Source: Chondrosia reniformis (Eukaryota; Porifera; Demospongiae; Chondrillida; Chondrillidae). Taken from it: 64,000 bases of DNA. Shown piece by piece: positions 3,160 to 63,100 of the stretch. The notes under the pieces are model-generated. The model saw only the letters and a list, made by a program, of their open reading frames with translations. It was not told the DNA's origin and ran no database searches. Every line of letters starts with the position of its first letter. Positions within the stretch are counted from its first letter, which is position 1. Both the position numbers and the translations under genes were made by a program. The stretch lies in NCBI GenBank assembly GCA_947172415.1, contig OX359200.1, positions 6,890,001-6,954,000 on the forward strand, given 5' to 3'.

Positions 3160-5060
3160 ATAATTAGACCAGGGACAAGCTAGTTCAAAGTGATAAGTCT
3201 AGCTGAAATGAAATCACAAGTCAAATTACCAGTCACAGCTATAGGGGACACCCGGCTCAATGAGAAGTCAAAGTAAATCTAGGCCTGGGACAGCTATAGC
3301 TAGTACAATTAGGCCCGGAACAGCTGACAGCTGGTTCAAAAGGACTAGTAAATATAAACCAGAGAGAGTCGGATCAAAATGACAAAAGATCTAGACTATT
3401 TAAAGATGGCCCTATGATGCTAATGGACCAGGGACAATGAGTACTAAGGAGATCATTAAAAACCAGAGATAGCTGCAAAATGGCATGAAATTAGGCCATG
3501 AATGTAATAGCTGCTAAAGAGCTCTTAAAATAGACCTGGGACAGACAAGGTCAAAATTGGACAACTATAGACCAGCCAACCCAAAAAGGACGGTCAAATA
3601 CATAGGACAGGACAGCCAGCTAAAATGATAAAATTAGAAAAAATAGACCAGGGACAACCAGCACAAAGTGCATGACCAGGGACCGCCAACTCAGTTGTAA
3701 ATCCATAGATACACCAGGAAGATCTAGCTCATTGTTCCAAAAATAGACCAGGGACATCCAGCACAAATGAAAAGTCAATAGTAGATGAAAGTATTGTAGC
3801 AGTCCAGACCTGAAATGAGTAGCTAGTCCATGCAATGTAAAACCTGCATGTATATAGGAAAATAATATAATACAACAGAATAACGTACATCACGTAAAAA
3901 TGGCAAACCTTCAAAAAACAATATCCAGTGTTTGGTGTATATAGCCAGGAATTTTTACTCTTGCTACTGATATTACGTCATGTAAAGAACGAAGAATGTC
4001 GTTTTACATTCAAAAGATTGATGAAATTAGGGACTACTACCAGCTAGCTGAAAGTTATCAATCCACAATTGGGACATCCAGGTCAAATAGGTCTAAGTAG
4101 AAGAAGGAGTCCAAATGATTGCTATACCAAATGGCAGAACCTGTGGAATGTATATAGAAAAATATGAAACAACTAAATAATGTATACATTTAAACGTGTC
4201 AAACCTTCAAAAGATTAAAATCAGGTTGCTTGGTGTATTTTCTTTTGTTCTGAATTTACTTTAATCCACTGTTTACATCCATGCTATCTTTACAGTTAAG
4301 ATGATTTGATCTGTTGTTTCAATTGAGTTTTTTGAAAATTTTCTCTTGCTATTGCCATTTTGTTGAAGTACATGAAGAAGCTATTTTAATTAATTCAGAA
4401 GATGAAATTAAGTGACGATTCAAAGTTGGCCATGCATTTTCTTCCTTTGTTGTTTTCAGTTTAAAAGTTGAGATTTTCTCTTTTCTTGCAATTTTTACTC
4501 TTGCTGCTGGTATTAAGTATCAAAAAGATGAAATAGTGAGTATTCAATGTTATATATATATGTTTTCTTCCTTTGGCGTTTTAGGTTAAGAGTTAGGAAT
4601 TTTGTTTTCGGTTGCATTTTGAAATTTTTACTCTTGCTACTGGCATTAAGTTGAAGTATATGAATAATTTAATTAGCAGTTAGTCTACATTCAAAAGTTG
4701 AAATTAAGTGACCATTAATTCTTTAAGTCATCCATGTCTTCTTCTTAAAGCAATTAAAATGCCAATCTTGACAAATTATTAGAAAATAAAATGCAAAAAT
4801 GCCAATTTTGACAAATTGTTAGAAAAAATGCCAAAATGCCAATCTTGACGAATTGTTAGAAAATAAAATGCAAAAATGCCAATCTTGACGAATTGTTAGA
4901 AAATAAAATGCAAAAATGCCAATCTTGACGAATTATTAGAAAATGTTGGACATTAACAGCTATTTCACTGTAACAAATTTAAATCAAAAAACAGACCAGG
5001 GACTGCCAGCTCAGTGGCAAGTCAAAAATAGAACAGGGCAGCCAGTTCAAAATTGCAACT
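3160..5060. repeat. Degenerate long-period repeats (GACCAGGGACA family and TTTTTACTCTTGCT family)
   Basis: The motif GACCAGGGACA or close variants recurs about every 40-80 bp from 3166 to 3760 and again near 4993, usually followed by CCAGCTCAAA-like sequence. A second family with TTTTTACTCTTGCTACTGG followed by ATTAAGTTGAAGTA recurs near 3953, 4338, 4490 and 4624 at a spacing of roughly 130-150 bp or multiples. Both look like old, mutated tandem arrays. Confidence 0.7.
4755..4945. repeat. 40-bp tandem repeat, about 4.5 copies
   Basis: Units contain GCCAATCTTGACGAATTGTT; one internal copy is shortened by loss of the ATAAAATGCAA segment. Confidence 0.9.
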
Positions 5061-18254: not shown

Positions 18255-18589
18255 GAGACTGTATTGTTCATAGTTATATATGTATTCTTGTAGCATGTAC
18301 ATGCACATACGTACGTACAACTTCTTGTGTGTATATATGTGTACATGCATACATATACCAACTTGGGCAGAACATAGCATCTTCTTCCTTCCATTTGCGT
18401 CTCTTTTATTTTGTTTGACTTGCCGCTTTCAAATGCTTTCAAAACAGACAAACTCACTCCAAGGTCATCAGGCTAATATATACACATAATATAGGTTTCA
18501 ATGTGTATATATACGTATAATGAATAATCTAATACACTTCTTTCCTATACATGCTATGCCTATATTTCTGTAATAAATTAAAAAGGTTA

Positions 18590-18665
18590 TATGGACTAAA
18601 CCTAGTGAGAGCTTTGGATGAGGAGGATACGGGAGTCTTTTCTTTCTTCTTTTGGGGAACTTGTT
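18590..18665. mobile_element. Fragment of the 19.3-kb foldback family
   Basis: The stretch CTAGTGAGAGCTTTGGATGA and the following TTTCTTTCTTCTTTT tract match the inverted end of the element at 19273-19408. No ribozyme-like core remains in this fragment. Confidence 0.55.
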
Positions 18666-19272
18666 CTTTTCTCTAGATCTATATATCTTTTGTGAATCCA
18701 GTATGTGTGGTAATGTAGATATAAACACTACCTTTAATTGGTTAAAGACCAGTGTTGATGCTGTTGCTCTCAGAATTAGCTTTCCATTATTGATCTTAAC
18801 ATTCAAATCTATAAGGATAATACACTATATGTACGTATATATATATGTAAAGATATGTGTGTATAATAGAATAGATATACATAGGTTCTATATATGCCAT
18901 ACTAAGCATTTATACAGTCACATGCATATATCTTCAGTATTAGTATACAAATATATATGTATATAGGCCAATACATGTACGTATAAAGCTGTTACATAAT
19001 ACAGTTTAATTTAAAATACTGGAATATACAGTCACATACAAATATAAACAAGAAAACGAGGCTGAAAATATAATTGATAATCATTGGAATGATCGAGAGC
19101 CAGATGAGAAAATACTGCATTCAAATACAATATATATACGTACAATATTGTACATGGATTCACAAAACATAAAGAAAAATGTATGAAAAATCTAATACAC
19201 CATTATTCTACATGCTATATATATTTGCCTACTCTTTAAAAAAGCCTATATATATAGGGAACTAAACCTGGA

Positions 19273-19408
19273 GAGAGCTTTGGATGAAGATACATGTACA
19301 AAGATTCCTAGGGTCACTGATGAAGGATGGAATTCCCAGAAACAGCCGTCTACCCTATATAGTGGAGCAAAAGAAGAAAGATCCTGTTTCTCCTCATCCT
19401 AAGCTCTC
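19273..19408 (+). mobile_element. Foldback element carrying the best hammerhead-like motif
   Basis: Inverted arms GAGAGCTTTGGATGA (19273-19287) and TCATCCTAAGCTCTC (19394-19408) bound the element. A related, more decayed copy is at about 19880-20042. The centre holds the hammerhead-like sequence listed separately. Confidence 0.7.
19310..19356 (+). ncRNA. Hammerhead-ribozyme-like motif with 2-bp stem III
   Basis: Every strictly conserved hammerhead position can be placed: CTGATGA (19317-19323), GAAA (19339-19342) and a GTC cleavage triplet (19348-19350). Stem III would be AC/GT closed by the loop AGCC. Stem I is formed by AGGGT-C-A before the core and TACCCT after the cleavage site, six pairs with one bulged C. 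Stem II (19324-19338) is weak, three pairs, with extra unpaired bases next to the core. Hammerheads with very short stem III are known from Penelope-like retroelements and some animal satellites and often work as dimers. Self-cleavage is not shown, and the weak stem II may mean a decayed copy. Confidence 0.5.
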
Positions 19409-19879
19409 ACCATGATCCTTGATATATATTTAGTCGATCATTAAAACTATTCTTTTTCTCAGCTGTATAGCCATAACTGATATATTAATAAGCTACGTGG
19501 CAATTGCACAAGCTTGCAACATTGGGATAATTGCAGATGCTGTACTATGCATGGTATTTATTTGATTTTAAATATTTAAAGAATGTTACAACAACCTACG
19601 TATATAAAAAATATGCACGCACATACACAAAATATTATGCATTCCATCATATATAGGAGCTTACTTATCGCTCTGTGACGCCCACCATTTAGGAAATCAG
19701 ATCCTGTAGGCATGACAGGGGAGCCATAATAGACATTCCTCCATCAGTTGATTACTTTAATTAAAATATTGAGCTTACTGCAATAAATATACATGCATGC
19801 ATTTGGTGTCTTCAAATGTTAAAGATTTGGAACAATTTTTATCACTGTATGTACATTTTTTAGCAATTTAAAAAGTGAA

Positions 19880-20042
19880 GTATATAGGACTCACAAATGA
19901 TCATGAAAAAGACAAAGATTCTTGGGTTTGCTGATCATGATGAAGGGTGGAATTCCCAGAAACAGTTGTCTGGCCCAGTGGAGAAGAAGAAGAAAACTCT
20001 GATCTAATCCGAAGTTCTCACTAGCTTTAGTTCCCTATAGGC
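19880..20042 (+). mobile_element. Second, decayed copy of the 19.3-kb element
   Basis: It shares GATGAAGGGTGGAATTCCCA then GAAACAG with the copy at 19273-19408. The core reads ATGATGA (19937-19943, C3 changed to A), GAAAC (19959-19963), loop AGTT, GTC (19968-19970). Stem II is better here (GGG/CCC), while stem I (TTGGG/CCCAG) is interrupted by an insertion on the 5' side. Confidence 0.6.
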
Positions 20043-20477
20043 CTTTATTCTAAAGTAGATGTACGTATATAGCATGTAAGAAAACGGTGTCACAGTGTTA
20101 GATTACGTATATTATTCATGTATGCCTTTTACATATATATTCTCTTATAGCAATGGTCTTTTGCTATTGTATATACGTACTTTATATTAGATATTATATA
20201 CATCCATTATATAATTATGTCCTTTACTCAATTTAATAACAGCAGCTGTTTCACACATATTTGGCAGGATATAAGTCACTCTTCCCATTTTTGCTCTATG
20301 TGAATTTAATCTAAACTAATTGAACAATATTATATCTTTTTCAGTGTATTATTCTTGCATGACAAACAGGGATATTATAGGCCTGTGAATTTGGTATATA
20401 TAATTGCTAAACTGCTATCTCCAAATAGTTTCATTCATTATATTAGATTATGATACTTCAAACTTCAATGCTAAAAA

Positions 20478-24095: not shown

Positions 24096-43846
<19,751 letters not shown>

Positions 43847-48148: not shown

Positions 48149-51100
48149 TTACATCCAATCTTGTGGGTCAAAGTTGTGAATATTTGCTTGTTCAGAGAAG
48201 GCTCCAAATCTTGCTCCATCCATCTCTCGTGCAAGTGTGTTATCATCTCTCAAACGATGACTTCTTCCACCAATTCCAGCTCCACAGTCTGGACAGGTAC
48301 TCTCTTCAGTGGCTCCTCCACATTCAGTGATCACATAAACATGACCATTGGGACACTTGAACCAGTGACCTTGACTCAGTCCCATAGCTTTGACAATCTC
48401 CACCTTCTCCTTCTCTGAGATGTCAAGACCACTGCACTTCTTTCTGGCATCATCAAACACCTTCTTAATACTCTCATAATACTTGTCTGTCAGTTTCTCT
48501 GCCTTTGAACCATACCCAGCCAGACGGAGGTATTGCATGAGCTTACACAGTTGGTCCTTTGTTCTAGGTGGGATGGCTTGACCCTGACCTCTCTGAATCT
48601 TGTTAGCAATTTCACACCAATTCACCATCAGAGATATTCTTTTCAGTTCAGTCTCAATATCAGAGACTTGCTGGGGTGTGAGATATGAAGACGATTTGAG
48701 GACCCTGAGAATGACTTTCATGTCATTTAAAACTTCATTGCATTTGATCAAGCTGTCACTAATAACAAAGACATGATCGGAGGAGTGCTCCTCCAGTTTC
48801 ACTAGTAGGTCCCCAAGGGTAACAGCAATCTTCACTTTGACATCAAGTATAGAAGCTTCGTGGGCTGAAAGATTATGACTCTCCTGAGCTGCTTTGATGT
48901 CCTCTTTCAATTTCTTAGAGTATTCAATAAAAATGTCACAATGCTTCTTTTGAAAGAGAGAATTTCGTAGCTTTCTTAAGGTCATTGAAGCTTTTTTTAG
49001 ATCAACAGTTGCAGCATTTGCTGAGATTGCTGTCTTGATACTCTCAAGGTCCTTCAGTGTAGCCTTAATGATGTTGCCATATCTAAAACTGCGACGTATT
49101 TCAGTTTTACATTTGGGACACCTCTTGAATTGAATCTCTATTGTCTTCCCCTGGCTATGGTCTTGGTCCATCCACTGATCCATTCCTGTGACCTCTAACA
49201 CATGACCACAGTCTTGGAGTTTAATGAATCTTGCACCTTTTTCATCTTCAGTTCCAAAAAACACTTCTTCAACTTTAACCTTATGGCAGATTCTGCAATA
49301 CTCTGGGCACCTCTCACCACACAGACCAATGCAGGAGTGACCACACTCCAGGATCTTACGGCACGGCTTGTTACACCTAGGTCTGTTGCACATCTCTCCA
49401 CATTTCTTGGTGCACTTGTGATGTATGCACTGCCACTGGCAAGGCTCCATGCATGGAGTACAAGGCTCTCCACACTTCTTTTGACATTTGCTGTGTTCAC
49501 AATAGTTTCCACATTTCATCTTACAAGGTGGACACTTATCAGTGCAGGGGAACTTGCAAGCATGTCCACAAGGCAGTGTACGGTCACAAGGATGACTGCA
49601 GGGCTGGTGAAGGCGGCCATGTTGGCAGTCCGAACAAGTACCAGAGCAATAGTGGTCGCACTGAAGCCGAGCGGTACATTGCTGTGGACATACAGCATCA
49701 GCCTCATTGACGTTGCAAGGAATGTTTACCCTATGTCCACATGGCAAGAGTTTTGGGATCCAATGCTTGCAGTGCAATGATGTCATACAAGGCTCGTGAC
49801 ACCACCTTGTACAGCTGTGGCCACAGCTTAGCGACTTACCACAGGGATAGGGACATAAGTACTTTAAAGGATCCAAATGGCATTTCATTCTCACTGTATG
49901 CCCGCACTCCAGTGACCTCTCAACTGTAGTCATACACTTCTTGCAGCCATCCCTACATTCATAGCACCTTCTGGTACACTTGTGTCCACATGGAAGAGGT
50001 TTGACGTTGGAACACAGTTCTCTGCATTGTGTACTCTTGTGATCCATGTCAACCACGTGACACATTCTCTTGCAAGCATGGCCACAATCTAATCGGATCC
50101 CACATATCTTGGAGCATCCACCCTCCTTAACTTTACTGAAGTCATCTGCGCTGCTGACAAATGTGTCTGTGTTCCTGTGGTTTTGACAGTACAGAGGTAG
50201 GTTTTGGCTCAGGAGGCCACGCTTTTGAACATCTTCTATTATGTCTGGCCAAGGAGTTCCGACTTGTCCACGAAGCATTTCAAAGTTTCCAAACACATAC
50301 AAGCCCCATTTAGCTCTGGACAGTGCAACACAAACACGAGTGTCCTCCTTCAGGAAGCCAACGTTGTTCTTCTGGTTGCTGCGTACAAGTGACAGCAAAA
50401 TGATGTCATTCTCCTCTCCCTGGAAGTCATCTACAGCTGCAACTCGGACACCTTCAAACTGGTCTTTGGGCATCTTCTTTTTCAGCTTCAAGAGCTGTCC
50501 CTTGTACATGGTGAGTATGGTAATTTGACTGGTCTCATATCCCTGAAGGATCAGGTAACGGCAAAAAGCTACTATGAAATCAGCCTCAAAGTCATTTGAA
50601 TGACTGAGTTGATCATAATCTTTCTTGGAATCCTCTAGAGCTTGATGGTTTAAAAAGAGGAGATTTGCACCAACTCCCTTGATACTTGGGTAGTCCTTAA
50701 CGCTGTCGTGATCCACAAGGTGCTCGTAAATGTGTGGATGGACCAGTTTGGATATGTCTGGCCTCATGCGATGCTGAATAGCCAATGTGACATAGGGAAA
50801 ATCATTCTTGACAAGCCGTTCAAAGAGGGACACAGCCAAGTTGTAATGCTTTGACAGCTCATATGTGTTGAGCTTTGGTCTGAGCTGTTTGTGGTCCCCA
50901 ATGAGTACGAGCTGCTGTGCCCCCGAGGAGAGACAGGACACTATGTGAGACTCAAGGACTTCGGCTGCTTCCTCTATCACCACAATCTTGGGACAGATCC
51001 TCTGCAGGATGTAGTTGTACTTGGCTGCACCAGTGGTTGTCATGCCGATGATATCAGCAGATTGAAGGATGTGAAGATTCAACTCATGCTTTTGTTCCTC

Positions 51101-53707
51101 ATAATTTTTGCATGCCTCCATGTAGGCAAATGCCTTTTGCTGAGCTGCCTCTTTGGCTTCTTCTATAAATTTGTGCGACCAATATTGATACAGACGCCAT
51201 TTGTCTGGCAATTTAAGTTTGTGAATGTTTTTCACTCGTGTTGCTTCTACTTCTGTCATTGGCTCACAGTTTGATCCCGTGTCTATTGCTCTTCTTCTGT
51301 CAAAATTACTTGGTTGCACTACTTCCCAACCGAATGCCTCCTTTATGACCTTTTTCTCGTGCTCATAAAGCTCTTTTCTATGATCATCAGCACTTTCTTT
51401 ATTTCTTGTTGGAGCAATAAGCAGCTCCTCTCCTTCCAGCATACGTTCATTTTGAGCTAAATTAGCTTCAGCATCCACTTCTACAAAGTCCTCAGAATTA
51501 CTATCATCATCTTCTCCATTTTGATCGCCTTTACTTTCTTTGGACGCCATCTCTTCAAGGTCCTTTTTATCCTCAAGTTTCATTTGTTCCATCCTTAATG
51601 CCAGTTCCTCTTCCTCCTCCGGAGAGAGTGTGCTGGCATACCACAGCTTGAGCCATATCTCTATTTGCCTTCCACTGTCTCTTTGGCTGCTACTGGCTAT
51701 GGTCTGATTTAGCTGTACTAAGTGCTCCCTTTTAATGAAGCGGCTTATCTTATCAAATGGAAGCAAGCTGTCTTCTTTGTGGGCATCTTGCAAAACACTT
51801 GATTTCATTTCATCTTTTATGGCAAAAAATTTTCTAGTTCCCTCGCTTAATGGTTTGTGGATATGCTTGGGTACAGCACGTCGTCTCTTCATGTCTTGTA
51901 TAATTTCTCTGATTGTGCATTGCTTCATTCTCTCACTGCGTGCACGACCACCAACTCTAACCACATTTGGGGGTTCCCCATTTATTATCAGGGCTAGGAT
52001 GTATTCCAGAAACTGATCAAGTGCATGGTTGGTAAGACAAACCACAAGAATGGGACTTTGGCCTGTGGTCCACTTGGCTTTGTTCCTCAAGAGTGCCTCA
52101 ACAATCCTAACACCTACATAGGTCTTTCCTGTGCCTGGAGGTCCTTGGATAACAGACACTTCTTTGGAGAGAGCCATTCTCATTGCTTCTAGTTGGGACT
52201 TATCAAATTTAGTGTCTTCAGGCAAGGGCCATGTACGCTCATCTGTGAGGGTGACATTGATTGGTCGGTTTGACTTCATTATCTCCATCAAGTTAAATTT
52301 GTTATCTGGTAGAGGTAAATAACCCAGATTTCTCTCCTGCGGTCTTAGGTATAATGGAGGCTCCAAGTCATAGTCACTGCACTTCAAATCAATCAGATAC
52401 TTTTTGAAAGGCATCAAATCATTAGTAATTCCTTGGAGCTGTTTGAGAATATGGCGGCAAGCTTCAAAGTATGCCGCTGATTCGATCATTATGAAGGATG
52501 TGGATGGTTGAATCCTAAAGCCGTTTGTATCATCTTCAAACTTGATTGTGACATTACCTCTTTGCAGTTTTTTTGAGTCTCTGTCAACAACTGTAGCAAA
52601 GAGAATATCATCAAATCTGTTTGATGAAAGGCAAAGTAGAGAGCCAAAAATTAGTCTTCTGGAGTGGTCCCAATTTACTTGCTTTAACCCTGAGGAATCA
52701 AACTGGATCATGAATCCGACTCCAGTCATTAGGCATACTGGTTCTAGGATGCGAACATTATTGTACACTCTGATATCAGTGTTTCGCTTAGACTGGTCAT
52801 CAGCAAGAAATTGGTTCAGACCTTGTCTCAGAGGATGAAGAAAGTCTTCACGAAGCAGGCGGAAATGAACATCCAAATAGTGATCCCAGTTTAGGTAGGT
52901 CTTGTCCACACGATTCTCTCTGATGTCCCTAATTATTTTAGAATCATGCAATTCATCTGCAGTTGGTAAAATGGACACCTCTTTGAAGCTACCAAAAGGC
53001 ATGGGAACTTCATTCTCCTTATCGTCCTCCTTCTTAGTCTCCTTCTGAATCATTATAGAGGTCATTGCATTCCTCATGCACTCTTTCCTGAACTTAACTA
53101 ATTCTTCAATTTGTTGGCAAAGGTTTGCTATCTTAGAATCCTTATTCTGAAAGGAAAGCATTTCTGCTGCCTCACCCAGTGGTACAATTGGTAAATGACT
53201 GGAAGTAGAGGTTTCTGGTATACGCTGCAGACACTCATTAAATATGTTGTGTAGTTTCTTCATCCAATCTCTGCTCTTATCCAGTTCATGGCCACCCTCC
53301 ATTGGCACCTGTTCAATGGCTGTTCTCATATCAGTCCAAAGTGAACCAGTATTCAGAGCATCAAGGAAGACAGCCAACAAAACATTTGAATGTTCTATAT
53401 TGCCGCTCCTTGCAACCTTTTCTATCACCAGTGTGATGGAGAGAAGACCTTTCTTCTGAAGACTGTGTACGCTTCGAAGATAATTTTTTAAAAGTGGCTG
53501 CTGGTCATAAAGGTGCACTACTAGACTTTCAGTATCTTTCATCGAAAATTCAGTAAATGTCCTTTCTGTCCAGAAATTCTGGCCGTAATCACTGTGATTA
53601 TTACCATGGCTATTTCTCTGACTGGAGACGATCTGTTCGTTGCGTCTGTCGGCATTGCGGTAACCTCCTCGCCTACCTCTGCCGCGATACATTCCACCGC
53701 GATTCAT
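48149..53707 (-). CDS. ZNFX1: NFX1-type zinc finger-containing protein 1, SF1 RNA helicase
   Basis: A single open exon of 1852 codons, close to the vertebrate length. Order of parts: RG-rich N-terminus (MYRGRGRRGG), a ZNFX1 N-terminal region, an SF1 helicase with Walker A GPPGTGKT (522-529), motif II EEAAE (about 912), QHRMRP, DDFQGEENDIILLSLVRS and ALSRAKWGLYVFGN, a run of NFX1-type Cys/His fingers (about 1190-1470), and a C-terminal RZ-type zinc finger (about 1780-1820, CPNGHVYVITECGG, CPDCGAGIGG). In vertebrates ZNFX1 is an interferon-linked RNA sensor at mitochondria; in nematodes it works in small-RNA inheritance granules; RZ fingers of this type can carry ubiquitin-ligase activity. An acid-rich insert (EEEEELALRMEQ and neighbours) splits the helicase core. 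A probable 5' leader exon lies at 54182 and above. An AATAAA overlaps the stop codon. Confidence 0.95.
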   Translation of the reverse strand: MNRGGMYRGRGRRGGYRNADRRNEQIVSSQRNSHGNNHSDYGQNFWTERTFTEFSMKDTESLVVHLYDQQPLLKNYLRSVHSLQKKGLLSITLVIEKVARSGNIEHSNVLLAVFLDALNTGSLWTDMRTAIEQVPMEGGHELDKSRDWMKKLHNIFNECLQRIPETSTSSHLPIVPLGEAAEMLSFQNKDSKIANLCQQIEELVKFRKECMRNAMTSIMIQKETKKEDDKENEVPMPFGSFKEVSILPTADELHDSKIIRDIRENRVDKTYLNWDHYLDVHFRLLREDFLHPLRQGLNQFLADDQSKRNTDIRVYNNVRILEPVCLMTGVGFMIQFDSSGLKQVNWDHSRRLIFGSLLCLSSNRFDDILFATVVDRDSKKLQRGNVTIKFEDDTNGFRIQPSTSFIMIESAAYFEACRHILKQLQGITNDLMPFKKYLIDLKCSDYDLEPPLYLRPQERNLGYLPLPDNKFNLMEIMKSNRPINVTLTDERTWPLPEDTKFDKSQLEAMRMALSKEVSVIQGPPGTGKTYVGVRIVEALLRNKAKWTTGQSPILVVCLTNHALDQFLEYILALIINGEPPNVVRVGGRARSERMKQCTIREIIQDMKRRRAVPKHIHKPLSEGTRKFFAIKDEMKSSVLQDAHKEDSLLPFDKISRFIKREHLVQLNQTIASSSQRDSGRQIEIWLKLWYASTLSPEEEEELALRMEQMKLEDKKDLEEMASKESKGDQNGEDDDSNSEDFVEVDAEANLAQNERMLEGEELLIAPTRNKESADDHRKELYEHEKKVIKEAFGWEVVQPSNFDRRRAIDTGSNCEPMTEVEATRVKNIHKLKLPDKWRLYQYWSHKFIEEAKEAAQQKAFAYMEACKNYEEQKHELNLHILQSADIIGMTTTGAAKYNYILQRICPKIVVIEEAAEVLESHIVSCLSSGAQQLVLIGDHKQLRPKLNTYELSKHYNLAVSLFERLVKNDFPYVTLAIQHRMRPDISKLVHPHIYEHLVDHDSVKDYPSIKGVGANLLFLNHQALEDSKKDYDQLSHSNDFEADFIVAFCRYLILQGYETSQITILTMYKGQLLKLKKKMPKDQFEGVRVAAVDDFQGEENDIILLSLVRSNQKNNVGFLKEDTRVCVALSRAKWGLYVFGNFEMLRGQVGTPWPDIIEDVQKRGLLSQNLPLYCQNHRNTDTFVSSADDFSKVKEGGCSKICGIRLDCGHACKRMCHVVDMDHKSTQCRELCSNVKPLPCGHKCTRRCYECRDGCKKCMTTVERSLECGHTVRMKCHLDPLKYLCPYPCGKSLSCGHSCTRWCHEPCMTSLHCKHWIPKLLPCGHRVNIPCNVNEADAVCPQQCTARLQCDHYCSGTCSDCQHGRLHQPCSHPCDRTLPCGHACKFPCTDKCPPCKMKCGNYCEHSKCQKKCGEPCTPCMEPCQWQCIHHKCTKKCGEMCNRPRCNKPCRKILECGHSCIGLCGERCPEYCRICHKVKVEEVFFGTEDEKGARFIKLQDCGHVLEVTGMDQWMDQDHSQGKTIEIQFKRCPKCKTEIRRSFRYGNIIKATLKDLESIKTAISANAATVDLKKASMTLRKLRNSLFQKKHCDIFIEYSKKLKEDIKAAQESHNLSAHEASILDVKVKIAVTLGDLLVKLEEHSSDHVFVISDSLIKCNEVLNDMKVILRVLKSSSYLTPQQVSDIETELKRISLMVNWCEIANKIQRGQGQAIPPRTKDQLCKLMQYLRLAGYGSKAEKLTDKYYESIKKVFDDARKKCSGLDISEKEKVEIVKAMGLSQGHWFKCPNGHVYVITECGGATEESTCPDCGAGIGGRSHRLRDDNTLAREMDGARFGAFSEQANIHNFDPQDWM

Positions 53708-60163: not shown

Positions 60164-63100
60164 ATGTACGCCTTGTATAAGGAGCTTCATCCGCCCACAG
60201 GAGTAGAACATTGCGCTTCCGGGAGCATCACTGATAGAGCGGACCATAACATTGTGACTGCAGCCGGCTCCACTTTAAGAGTATACAAGCTGAGAAAGGT
60301 ACCATTAACTGATAGATTCTACTATTCCTGTTAAGTATTTTTGAATAATTTTGTAGACACTAAATGGATCAGAAATAGAAGGTAAATTCATGCAGTCCTG
60401 CGTTACCTTGTGACTCTATATAATGTAGTTACAAAATGAGAACATTCAGGATGTCAGGATGGCCGAGCGGTCTAAGGCGCTGCGTTCAGGTCGCAGTCTA
60501 CTCTTGTAGGCGTGGGTTCGAATCCCACTTCTGACATATTTTTTCTTTTTTTCTAAATTCTTGTACATGTATCCCAAAGGTGACTTTTCTTTTTTTCCTT
60601 ATCATTTCAGAACATCTTGAGCAGGTCTTAGAATGCGAACTCTTTGGAAATTTGTCTTCTCTAGCCATAGCAAGGTTACCAAAGTCGAAACGAGATGCCA
60701 TCTTGTTAGCATTCAAAGACGCAAAAGTAACAGTTGGGATAATGGTAATGCACCTTTTTTATATTTATGGTTGCAATCTTATCGCTTGTTAGCTATCAGT
60801 AGTGGAGTTTGATTCAGAGAGTCACAGTTTGAATACAGTTTCTTTGCACTACTTTGAAGATGAAGAGACAAAAGTTAGTTTATTGGAAGGAATTTAAGAA
60901 AACCCGCAAGGTTATCTTATAGCAACTAAACATTTACATTTGTATGACTATTATTTGTTTTGCTAATGATAAATTAATTTGTTTACTGTCAGTAGCACTT
61001 TAGCTAGTATCTGAAATTCATTTCTGTCTATTGTGTCATATTATTATGGACTAAGTAATTGCTGTAAATCTAGCTGTGTGATTGAAGGGTGTGGTTGAAG
61101 GGTGTGGTTGAAAGGGTGTGGTTGAAGGGTGTGGTTGAAGGGTGTGATCACAAGGTGAGCCTGTTGGTGTGTGTGTGTAGGTGGGTAGTGGAGCGGAGGT
61201 GAAGCCTCCTCTAGTGAGAGTGGATCCAGACCACAGGTGTGCTGGAATGCTCATTTACAACACCAAACTTGTCATTCTACCCATCCAACAAGGGGACATC
61301 AGAAAGGCTTCCAAGAAATCACCTTCTCACAGGTTGGAACTGGCATCATCTGCATTCCTTGTTTGCTGGAATTTCTATATTTATTAATCGGCCATTTTCT
61401 TTCCTCTCCCAGCCACTCGTCCACTCTACATAGTTATATCATAGACTTGACAACGCTGGACTTGACGTCTGTTGCCGATCAGCTGTTGAGTGTTAGGGAC
61501 TTTAACTTTCTCTTTGGCTACAACAACCCAACTGTGTCCATCTTGTTTGAGACCGTTCCAACCTGTGCTGGGTATGACATACCAGTGAAGCATATGATAT
61601 ACGTAGGACATACTAGTAAAGCATATGATATACGTAGGACATACTAGTGAAGTATATGATATAGGACATACTAGTGAAGCATATGATATACGTAGGACAT
61701 ACTAGTGAAGCATATGATATAGGACATACTAGTGAAGCATATGATATAGGACATACTAGTGAAGCATATGATATAGGACATACTAGTGAAGCATATGATA
61801 TAGGACATACTAGTGTATTTTATTATGGTGAAATAGAAGTTTCTTTAAATTAACAACCTTCAAATGTTTTTTTTTCATTTTGGGAACCTCAAAAGGTTAG
61901 CAAGTGAACCATTTAAGGATTTGTATATGAACTTCTATCTTGAAATTATCTATCAAATCTGTAACTGATGGTATACTAGCTTTACCTGTACTTGTGTCCC
62001 CATTTTAGGCGCATTGCCACATTTAAGGACACTTGTTGCTTTGTCACTGCCTCACTAGACATCAGCCAGAAGATTCATGCTGTTGTGTGGGCGGACAGGG
62101 GACTTCCCCTGGATTGCTTCAAGCTCCTGCCTGTACCCAAACCACTTGGTGAGAACATTATGTGGCAATTGATTACCAGTTGTTGAATGTGTTACATATC
62201 TGTTGCAATTTGTTGCAATTTGTAACATTTTAGATTTAATACTCATTATGTTATTTCACTTCATTCTTCCACTTCCTCACTCTACATCAATCAGTCTCGC
62301 CTTCTTATTTCCATTTTCTGTCTCTCTTTCCTCAGGAGGTATTTTAGTGTTCACTGTGAACAGTCTGATCTACTTCAGTCAGAGCTACCCTCATTTTGGC
62401 ATCTCCACAAACAGTTTAGCAGAGAAAATATCAAAATTTGCATATCGTAAGTCCATTCTCCAACACATGGCCTCAGTTTATCTCTTGATTTCAGTGCGTA
62501 ATTAACATAATCTTAGTCAATTCAGTGTTAATGGACTGAGTTTGATAACTGGAGAGATAAAAGGCAATAAAGCATATTTACCTGCTACAGTCACTGTCCT
62601 ATGTATTCAGGTTCTAAGGCCTCAGTCGTGTTGACTTTGGACAGCTCAAGAGCTTGTTTCATGGCTCCTGACCAACTTCTTCTAACTCTGAAGAATGGAC
62701 AAATGTATGAAACATATTCAAGACAGTTATTTGCTCAAATAATATATTATTGATTTGATTCTAAGTTATACTTAAGTTTTTCATTGTTTCTACAGTTACA
62801 TGGTTTCCATGGTTACAGAGAGTCCTGGTAGGGACATGGTGAGAGGTATTACCTTTGACCTCATGGCCGCCAGTGTCCAATCTTCATCTGTGAGTAGCAG
62901 CAAGCAGTATTGGACACTATCCCTTTGAAAAGGGGTGTGTCTAACACAAAGGGGCGTGTCTGTCTGTGTTTGTAGGTGTGTAAACTATCAGACGAGTTTA
63001 TCTTTCTCGGATCTCATCTCGGAAACTCGTTGTTACTGCAGTGTACTCAAAAATTAGAAGTCAGTTTTATATTGTATATTATGTGTGGGTTTCATTACAT

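Follow-up and report, generated by a model that had tools for sequence, protein, structure and literature searches.

A probable decayed minimal type I hammerhead in a solo pseudo-LTR retrocopy of a Chondrosia reniformis Penelope-like element, and a proposed cut-and-copy cycle

The window analysed here is a 64,000-nt stretch of chromosome 12 (6890001-6954000) of the sponge Chondrosia reniformis, assembly odChoReni1.1, as given in the available part of its genome note (PMC12181767); genome-wide searches covered 117,379,552 bp in 15 contigs. On the minus strand of the window, a 1852-codon open frame (48149-53707) has matches to a ZNFX1 domain, an AAA helicase and an RZ-type zinc finger, as in a ZNFX1-like protein. 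On the plus strand lie a match to the beginning of the class II alanyl-tRNA synthetase domain (24096-24563), probably an exon, and a tRNA (60453-60536; Rfam RF00005, 54.6 bits). A hammerhead-like motif occupies 19310-19356 (+), and was assessed by its boxes, by pairing in strict register and by pattern searches against shuffled sequences. The boxes CTGATGA (19317-19323), GAAA (19339-19342) and GTC (19348-19350) have the order and positions given to them by the initial annotation, as does the predicted cut at 19350/19351. Equally present is the claimed stem III, AC/GT at 19342-19343/19348-19349, with the pairs A19342-T19349 and C19343-G19348 and the loop AGCC; the two strands of stem I lie at 19310-19316 and 19351-19356. 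The pattern CTGATGA-N15-GAAAC-N4-GTC has one exact match in the window and one with a single mismatch (19937-19970), compared with a mean of 0.11 matches at up to two mismatches in shuffled windows, of which 1 in 100 held at least two.

What had been described around this motif as a single 136-bp foldback element consists of two copies of one repeat, nested in opposite orientations. The first 27 nt of the motif-bearing copy lie at 19153-19179 (+; BLAST against the 223-nt consensus, 88.9% over 27 nt, E 4.7e-4; L001 1394-1420), and its remainder, which corresponds to consensus 29-143 and holds the motif, lies at 19298-19412 (+; 83.5% identity). Between them, a second, 5'-truncated copy (consensus 118-222; 80% identity) occupies 19183-19294 on the minus strand and creates the foldback. 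A MITE or foldback element was rejected on this basis, the inverted arms being two copies and the family consensus having, by eye, no terminal inverted repeats. Copies in opposite orientations are also found close together at another locus, L058. The window holds two further copies of the repeat: one, 5'-truncated, at 18520-18654 (-; consensus 95-222; 86% identity), and another at 19886-20090 (+; consensus 3-208), found by alignment to the consensus and by pattern search, in whose hammerhead (19937-19970) an A replaces the first C of the core.

The six-pair stem I of the initial annotation does not hold for the window copy as such, in which four of the six pairs form in strict register and all six only with a bulged C; it does hold for the consensus of the family, where stem I is unbroken over six pairs (GGGTCA/TGGCCC, one of them G.U). 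Rfam gave no hammerhead match at gathering score in the whole window, nor at E up to 10 at the locus itself (L009), and the window copy folded in isolation took a shape unlike a hammerhead. Judged by its sequence, the window copy is an ordinary decayed member of a repeat family that has lost part of its relatives' features, and since stem I pairs have been lost, self-cleavage by this copy is unlikely.

The consensus of the family, which we call family C, was derived from an alignment of 40 scored copies out of 1385 first-look candidates. The repeat is about 223 bp long (range 223-245 nt), and dispersed copies are 88-98% identical to the consensus over aligned bases. The type I core (CUGANGA, GAAA, UH) and an A-U-closed stem III are present in both the consensus and the window copy, and in the consensus stem III is AC/GT and the boxes follow the order seen in the minimal type I hammerhead. 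Its stem II, by comparison, shows an A.A apposition at the closing place, followed by GGG/CCC. When the isolated consensus of subfamily C1 was folded, it gave the same fold as two further hammerhead families of this genome, A and B, but with a z of 0.00 against shuffles, compared with -3.3 for those families; in the young subfamily C2, stem I contains an A.C mismatch, and the 46-mer folded on its own gives no hammerhead.

Conservation was counted in 37 copies picked by similarity to the window region, namely the 40 without the window copy and without two that were near-duplicates. In these, core positions depart from the consensus in 14 of 555 cells, compared with 431 of 6858 elsewhere (p 1.2e-4) and with 64 of 1147 at the remaining hammerhead positions (p 0.004). 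The C1 and C2 consensuses showed no extra conservation of the hammerhead between them, being identical at 43 of 46 positions inside it and 156 of 172 outside (p 0.77). A lysine-rich open frame runs across the hammerhead in many family C copies (for example L060 1448-1640), and the core CTGATGA itself contains ATG. This frame had no Pfam match, and a coding origin of the motif region was rejected on that ground. In the Anolis carolinensis element PAc, by way of background, the available text describes an ORF that begins at hammerhead stem II (PMC11167929).

Several copies show local rearrangements. Pieces of the repeat have turned minisatellite at G000:C2:756967-757408 and G000:C7:5308340-5308446, with units of 25 bp and 28 bp directly after the cut site. 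The locus L128, considered as tandem copies, proved to be a local minisatellite with a unit of about 52 bp. Few close pairs were seen; at L139 (G000:C1:2734613-2735073), two family C hammerheads stand head to tail, 191 nt apart.

Genome-wide, the pattern CTGATGA-N6-30-GAAAC-N2-8-GTC has 1178+1215 (2393) matches, compared with 21+21 (42) for the reversed pattern. Those listed belong mostly to family C, and the others carry a canonical stem II, which is closed in both family A (GTCC..GGAC) and family B (GCCC..GGGC), with the same stem III as family C. Rfam RF00163 passes three of the four family A/B loci tried (37.1-41.6 bits; L078 fails), and it gave no match at E up to 10 in 20 family C loci, nor in L060. 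The A/B hammerheads lie within larger foldbacks, whose reverse-complementary arms are 1224-1344 and 1557-1676 in L061, and 1422-1476 and 1622-1676 in L070. Regular expressions for reverse transcriptase (RT) and GIY-YIG motifs found none within 3 kb at L061, L065, L070 and L078, nor in the window.

In an alignment of 17 sequences that we chose from families A, B and C, with 15 invariant columns, 90.4% of stem I and stem III cells are paired, a value that none of 500 shuffles attained, whereas slid partners reached at most 39.7%. Seventeen cells are changed on both sides, with a covariation score of 0.425, and neither figure was reached in 500 shuffles. Two further measures were less exclusive: five of the six stem I pairs are changed on both sides across the three families, which 66 of 500 shuffles matched, and another measure was reached by 21 of 500. 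Stem I covaries across families A, B and C and has been kept by compensating changes. The covariance support proposed as a check of the motif is found across the families, but not with the Rfam models, which miss family C.

The carrier of the repeat became apparent from the sequence upstream of the L060 copy. Among matches to that sequence, 37 of 40 scored share an unchanged 79-bp stretch, and several are paired on one strand, 3501-3533 bp apart. Four loci (L096-L099) have direct repeats of 421-1155 bp at this spacing, the repeat starts differing in L097-L099. At L096, the repeats (633-1297 and 4134-4798; 8 mismatches in 665, edges included) both contain the hammerhead and flank one open frame of 997 codons. 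Close to the N-terminus, the frame matches GIY-YIG (residues 126-159/997; 21.9 bits for the whole ORF and 24.1 bits on a piece, cut-off 22.6), ahead of a weak RVT_1 match (24.4 bits, below the cut-off of 29.6; E 2.6e-5). The motifs PKLHK, GIPMGT and RYIDD were recognised by eye as RT motifs, and a PDB sequence search with the RT piece returned no useful match. Because it combines tandem pseudo-LTRs (pLTRs), GIY-YIG and this RT, the carrier of family C is a young Penelope-like element (PLE), the repeat forming part of its pLTR, in place of the MITE- or retrozyme-like carrier first suggested. In permuted PLEs (the Naiad/Chlamys group), GIY-YIG is N-terminal and precedes the RT in one ORF, the same order as at L096, and for the sponge element this domain order points to that group. 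A TATATAAGG box lies about 31 nt upstream of CCAAGG, where many solo copies start; solo copies frequently begin about 31 nt past this TATA box, or are 5'-truncated.

Retrocopies were taken by their 3' pattern alone (1426+1401 genome-wide; 0+0 for the reversed control), and a sample of 100 listed places, all on chromosome 1, was analysed for 5' ends, 98 of them read from loci. At the middle alignment setting, 96 anchors were kept, giving 88 unique 5' junctions, of which 26 lie at the start site, 20 farther upstream (some set by the edges of the sequence examined) and 42 internally. Five of the 42 internal ends coincide with the base immediately following the hammerhead cut (binomial p 7e-6, taking 1/160 per base), or four of 41 events, L138 and L141 being one duplicated insertion. 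With the loose setting, 13 ends fell at the start site and the cut accounted for 4 of 37 internal ends; with the strict setting, the figures were 26 and 5 of 45, such that cut and uncut ends relate as 4-5 to 13-26, depending on alignment setting.

Junctions around the cut were also counted genome-wide, as an intact 13-mer downstream with three forced changes upstream. Raw counts were 17 at -5, 28 at -4, 23 at -1, 111 at +1, 39 at +2 and 56 at +6, with reversed controls of 1, 8, 0, 2, 0 and 5, respectively; the count at -11 (105 raw), many rows of which resemble family A/B hammerheads with a changed G, was set aside uncorrected. Once element-derived and minisatellite rows had been removed and similar rows merged, independent foreign junctions numbered 57 at +1 (among 100 listed of the 111) and 36 at +6, together with 11 at -5, 19 at -4, 11 at -1 and 20 at +2, these last four being counts of pattern rows without locus inspection whose true numbers may be lower. 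An alternative filter gave 11, 16, 13, 53, 22 and 39 from -5 to +6. In both subfamilies, the cut thus carries about 3 to 5 times as many ends as the positions compared with it. Forty of the listed +1 places, chosen by eye so as to leave out arrays and evident homologues, were inspected at the locus. In 35, which have the appearance of inserted 3' cleavage fragments, foreign DNA runs to the cut and is followed by at least 109 nt of a 142- or 156-nt 3' fragment, which in 29 of the 35 reaches within 5 nt of the 3' end; the remaining loci were L188 (stretch examined too short), L193, L197, L202 and L205. At the secondary hot spot at +6, 20 places picked by eye comprised 10 real ends, 9 chance 13-mers and one place with a hammerhead upstream, which indicates that about half of the independent rows there are due to chance.

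The peak at +1 suggests cleavage in vivo before reverse transcription, as far as the DNA of one genome can speak to it, and a reverse transcriptase running off the 5' end left by self-cleavage would explain why the peak at the cut is narrow. The alternative that survives best accepts the descent from a hammerhead and attributes the pile-up of 5' ends either to microhomology joining (target CATG, element TG) or to an RT stop at stem I. The concern about microhomology arises because targets resemble CATG and +1 starts with TG: 25 of the 57 +1 junctions have flanks ending in CA, CAT or CATG, and 16 of the 57 (CA followed by TG) are uncertain in position by up to 2 nt. However, position -4, which serves as the TG control, has 19 independent junctions (28 raw, reversed 8) compared with 57 at +1 (111 raw, reversed 2), and microhomology alone therefore does not make the +1 peak. 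Also against this alternative, a complete CAT or CATG precedes nine independent +1 rows compared with one of 19 at -4. With CA, CAT and CATG flanks removed, 32 junctions are left at +1, 29 at +6, 10 at -5, 13 at -4, 10 at -1 and 15 at +2; the filtered +1 count exceeds those at -5, -4, -1 and +2 but not clearly that at +6, about half of which is chance. The hot spot at +6, at the foot of stem I, would fit an RT stop, but a stop before stem I predicts ends at +6/+7 rather than +1. We consider this alternative unlikely, while giving it appreciable weight.

Far less probable is that the likeness to a hammerhead arose by chance, the repeat being a plain PLE pLTR fragment or a once protein-coding stretch. 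The absence of Rfam matches in the window, the 20 family C loci and L060, together with the A.A at the closing place of stem II, do count against the hammerhead reading, and the open frame across the motif in many copies might be taken the same way. Against chance stand the stem III and box spacing shared with the Rfam-positive families A and B, the covariation of stem I and the enrichment of ends at the predicted bond, and the open frame lacks a Pfam match. The proposal that the motif is a minimal hammerhead of the Penelope-like type is supported by stem I covariation between families and by retrocopy 5' ends enriched at the predicted cut. Least probable, by a small step, is a non-autonomous metazoan retrozyme spread via ribozyme-made circular RNA: size (about 223-245 nt, compared with 170-400 nt in animal non-LTR retrozymes in the available text of PMC7229834), a type I hammerhead and the head-to-tail pair at L139 would agree with it, but most copies looked at are single and the repeat is not in tandem arrays, copy ends are the start site or the cut plus a fixed 3' end, 0 of 35 inspected 3' fragments have a long match to the element upstream of the cut, and the sequence belongs to the pLTR of an autonomous PLE with its own ORF.

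That PLE pLTRs can carry minimal hammerheads is already known, and the available texts call the in vivo activity of these hammerheads unknown (PMC7761336, PMC11167929). With the minimal type I hammerheads of PLEs and Terminons, as far as these are described in the accessible parts of PMC7761336 and PMC6155905, family C shares the core, the minimal stem III, the pseudo-LTR place and dispersed copies, and differs in its open stem II closing pair, its lack of an Rfam match and its retrocopy ends at the cut. Another related system is Anolis PAc, which in the available text of PMC11167929 likewise has tandem pLTRs with a hammerhead in the pLTR region near the transcript start, AT-rich targets, a fixed 3' tail and uncut RNA as template. 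The same text places the GIY-YIG of PAc C-terminally, compared with N-terminally in the sponge PLE, and has the PAc hammerhead overlapping the ORF start, unlike that of the sponge. It also reports no RNA ends at the cut in PAc, whereas sponge retrocopy ends are enriched there, and finds that cutting was not needed in vitro, observations that we count against our preferred explanation. Also weighing against it are the A.A at the stem II closing place and the missing Rfam matches of family C, the C2 mismatch and fold, the C1 fold that does not beat its shuffles, the secondary hot spot at +6, the CATG-like targets that blur some +1 junctions, and the lack of extra C1/C2 conservation inside the hammerhead.

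Taken together, we assign a probability of roughly 0.78 to the reading that the window motif is a decayed minimal type I hammerhead in a solo pLTR retrocopy of a Chondrosia reniformis PLE, with a proposed cut-and-copy cycle. The sequence shows the repeat family, its position in the PLE pLTR, its covariation with canonical hammerheads and the enrichment of 5' ends at the cut; we infer the transcription start, the cleavage itself and its role. A TATA-type promoter in the pLTR would start RNA at ..CCAAGG, as indicated by the TATA box that precedes it by about 31 nt and by the start that many solo copies share. The hammerhead would then lie near the RNA 5' end, and part of the RNA would cut itself after GUC, yielding a 3' fragment that, from the retrocopy ends, probably begins UGGCCC or UGACCC. 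The PLE reverse transcriptase would begin from the element's fixed 3' end (..TTCATG), frequently on targets resembling CATG, and copying would run to whichever 5' end the RNA offers, be it the start site, the ribozyme cut or an earlier stop. The window copy would later have been interrupted by the opposite copy and have lost stem I pairs.

The literature titles and abstracts searched contained no report of retrocopy 5' ends at a hammerhead cut, and as far as they show, the sponge family C, its open stem II missed by Rfam and the use of retrocopy 5' ends as a cleavage record are new. One implication is that Rfam hammerhead models miss a large family. On balance, we favour the view that the genome records ribozyme cutting: reverse transcription of 3' cleavage fragments of PLE pLTR RNA would have run from the element's 3' end as far as the cut before insertion, and that of uncut RNAs as far as the transcription start. 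The minimal PLE hammerhead would then be active in vivo despite its open stem II closing pair and would determine the 5' end for some of the retrotransposition templates. If retrocopy 5' ends do mark the cut, the cleavage question becomes testable in many species from genome assemblies alone, the ratio of cut to uncut ends would measure germ-line cleavage in any sequenced species, and the Chondrosia genome says that cut and uncut RNA both serve as templates.
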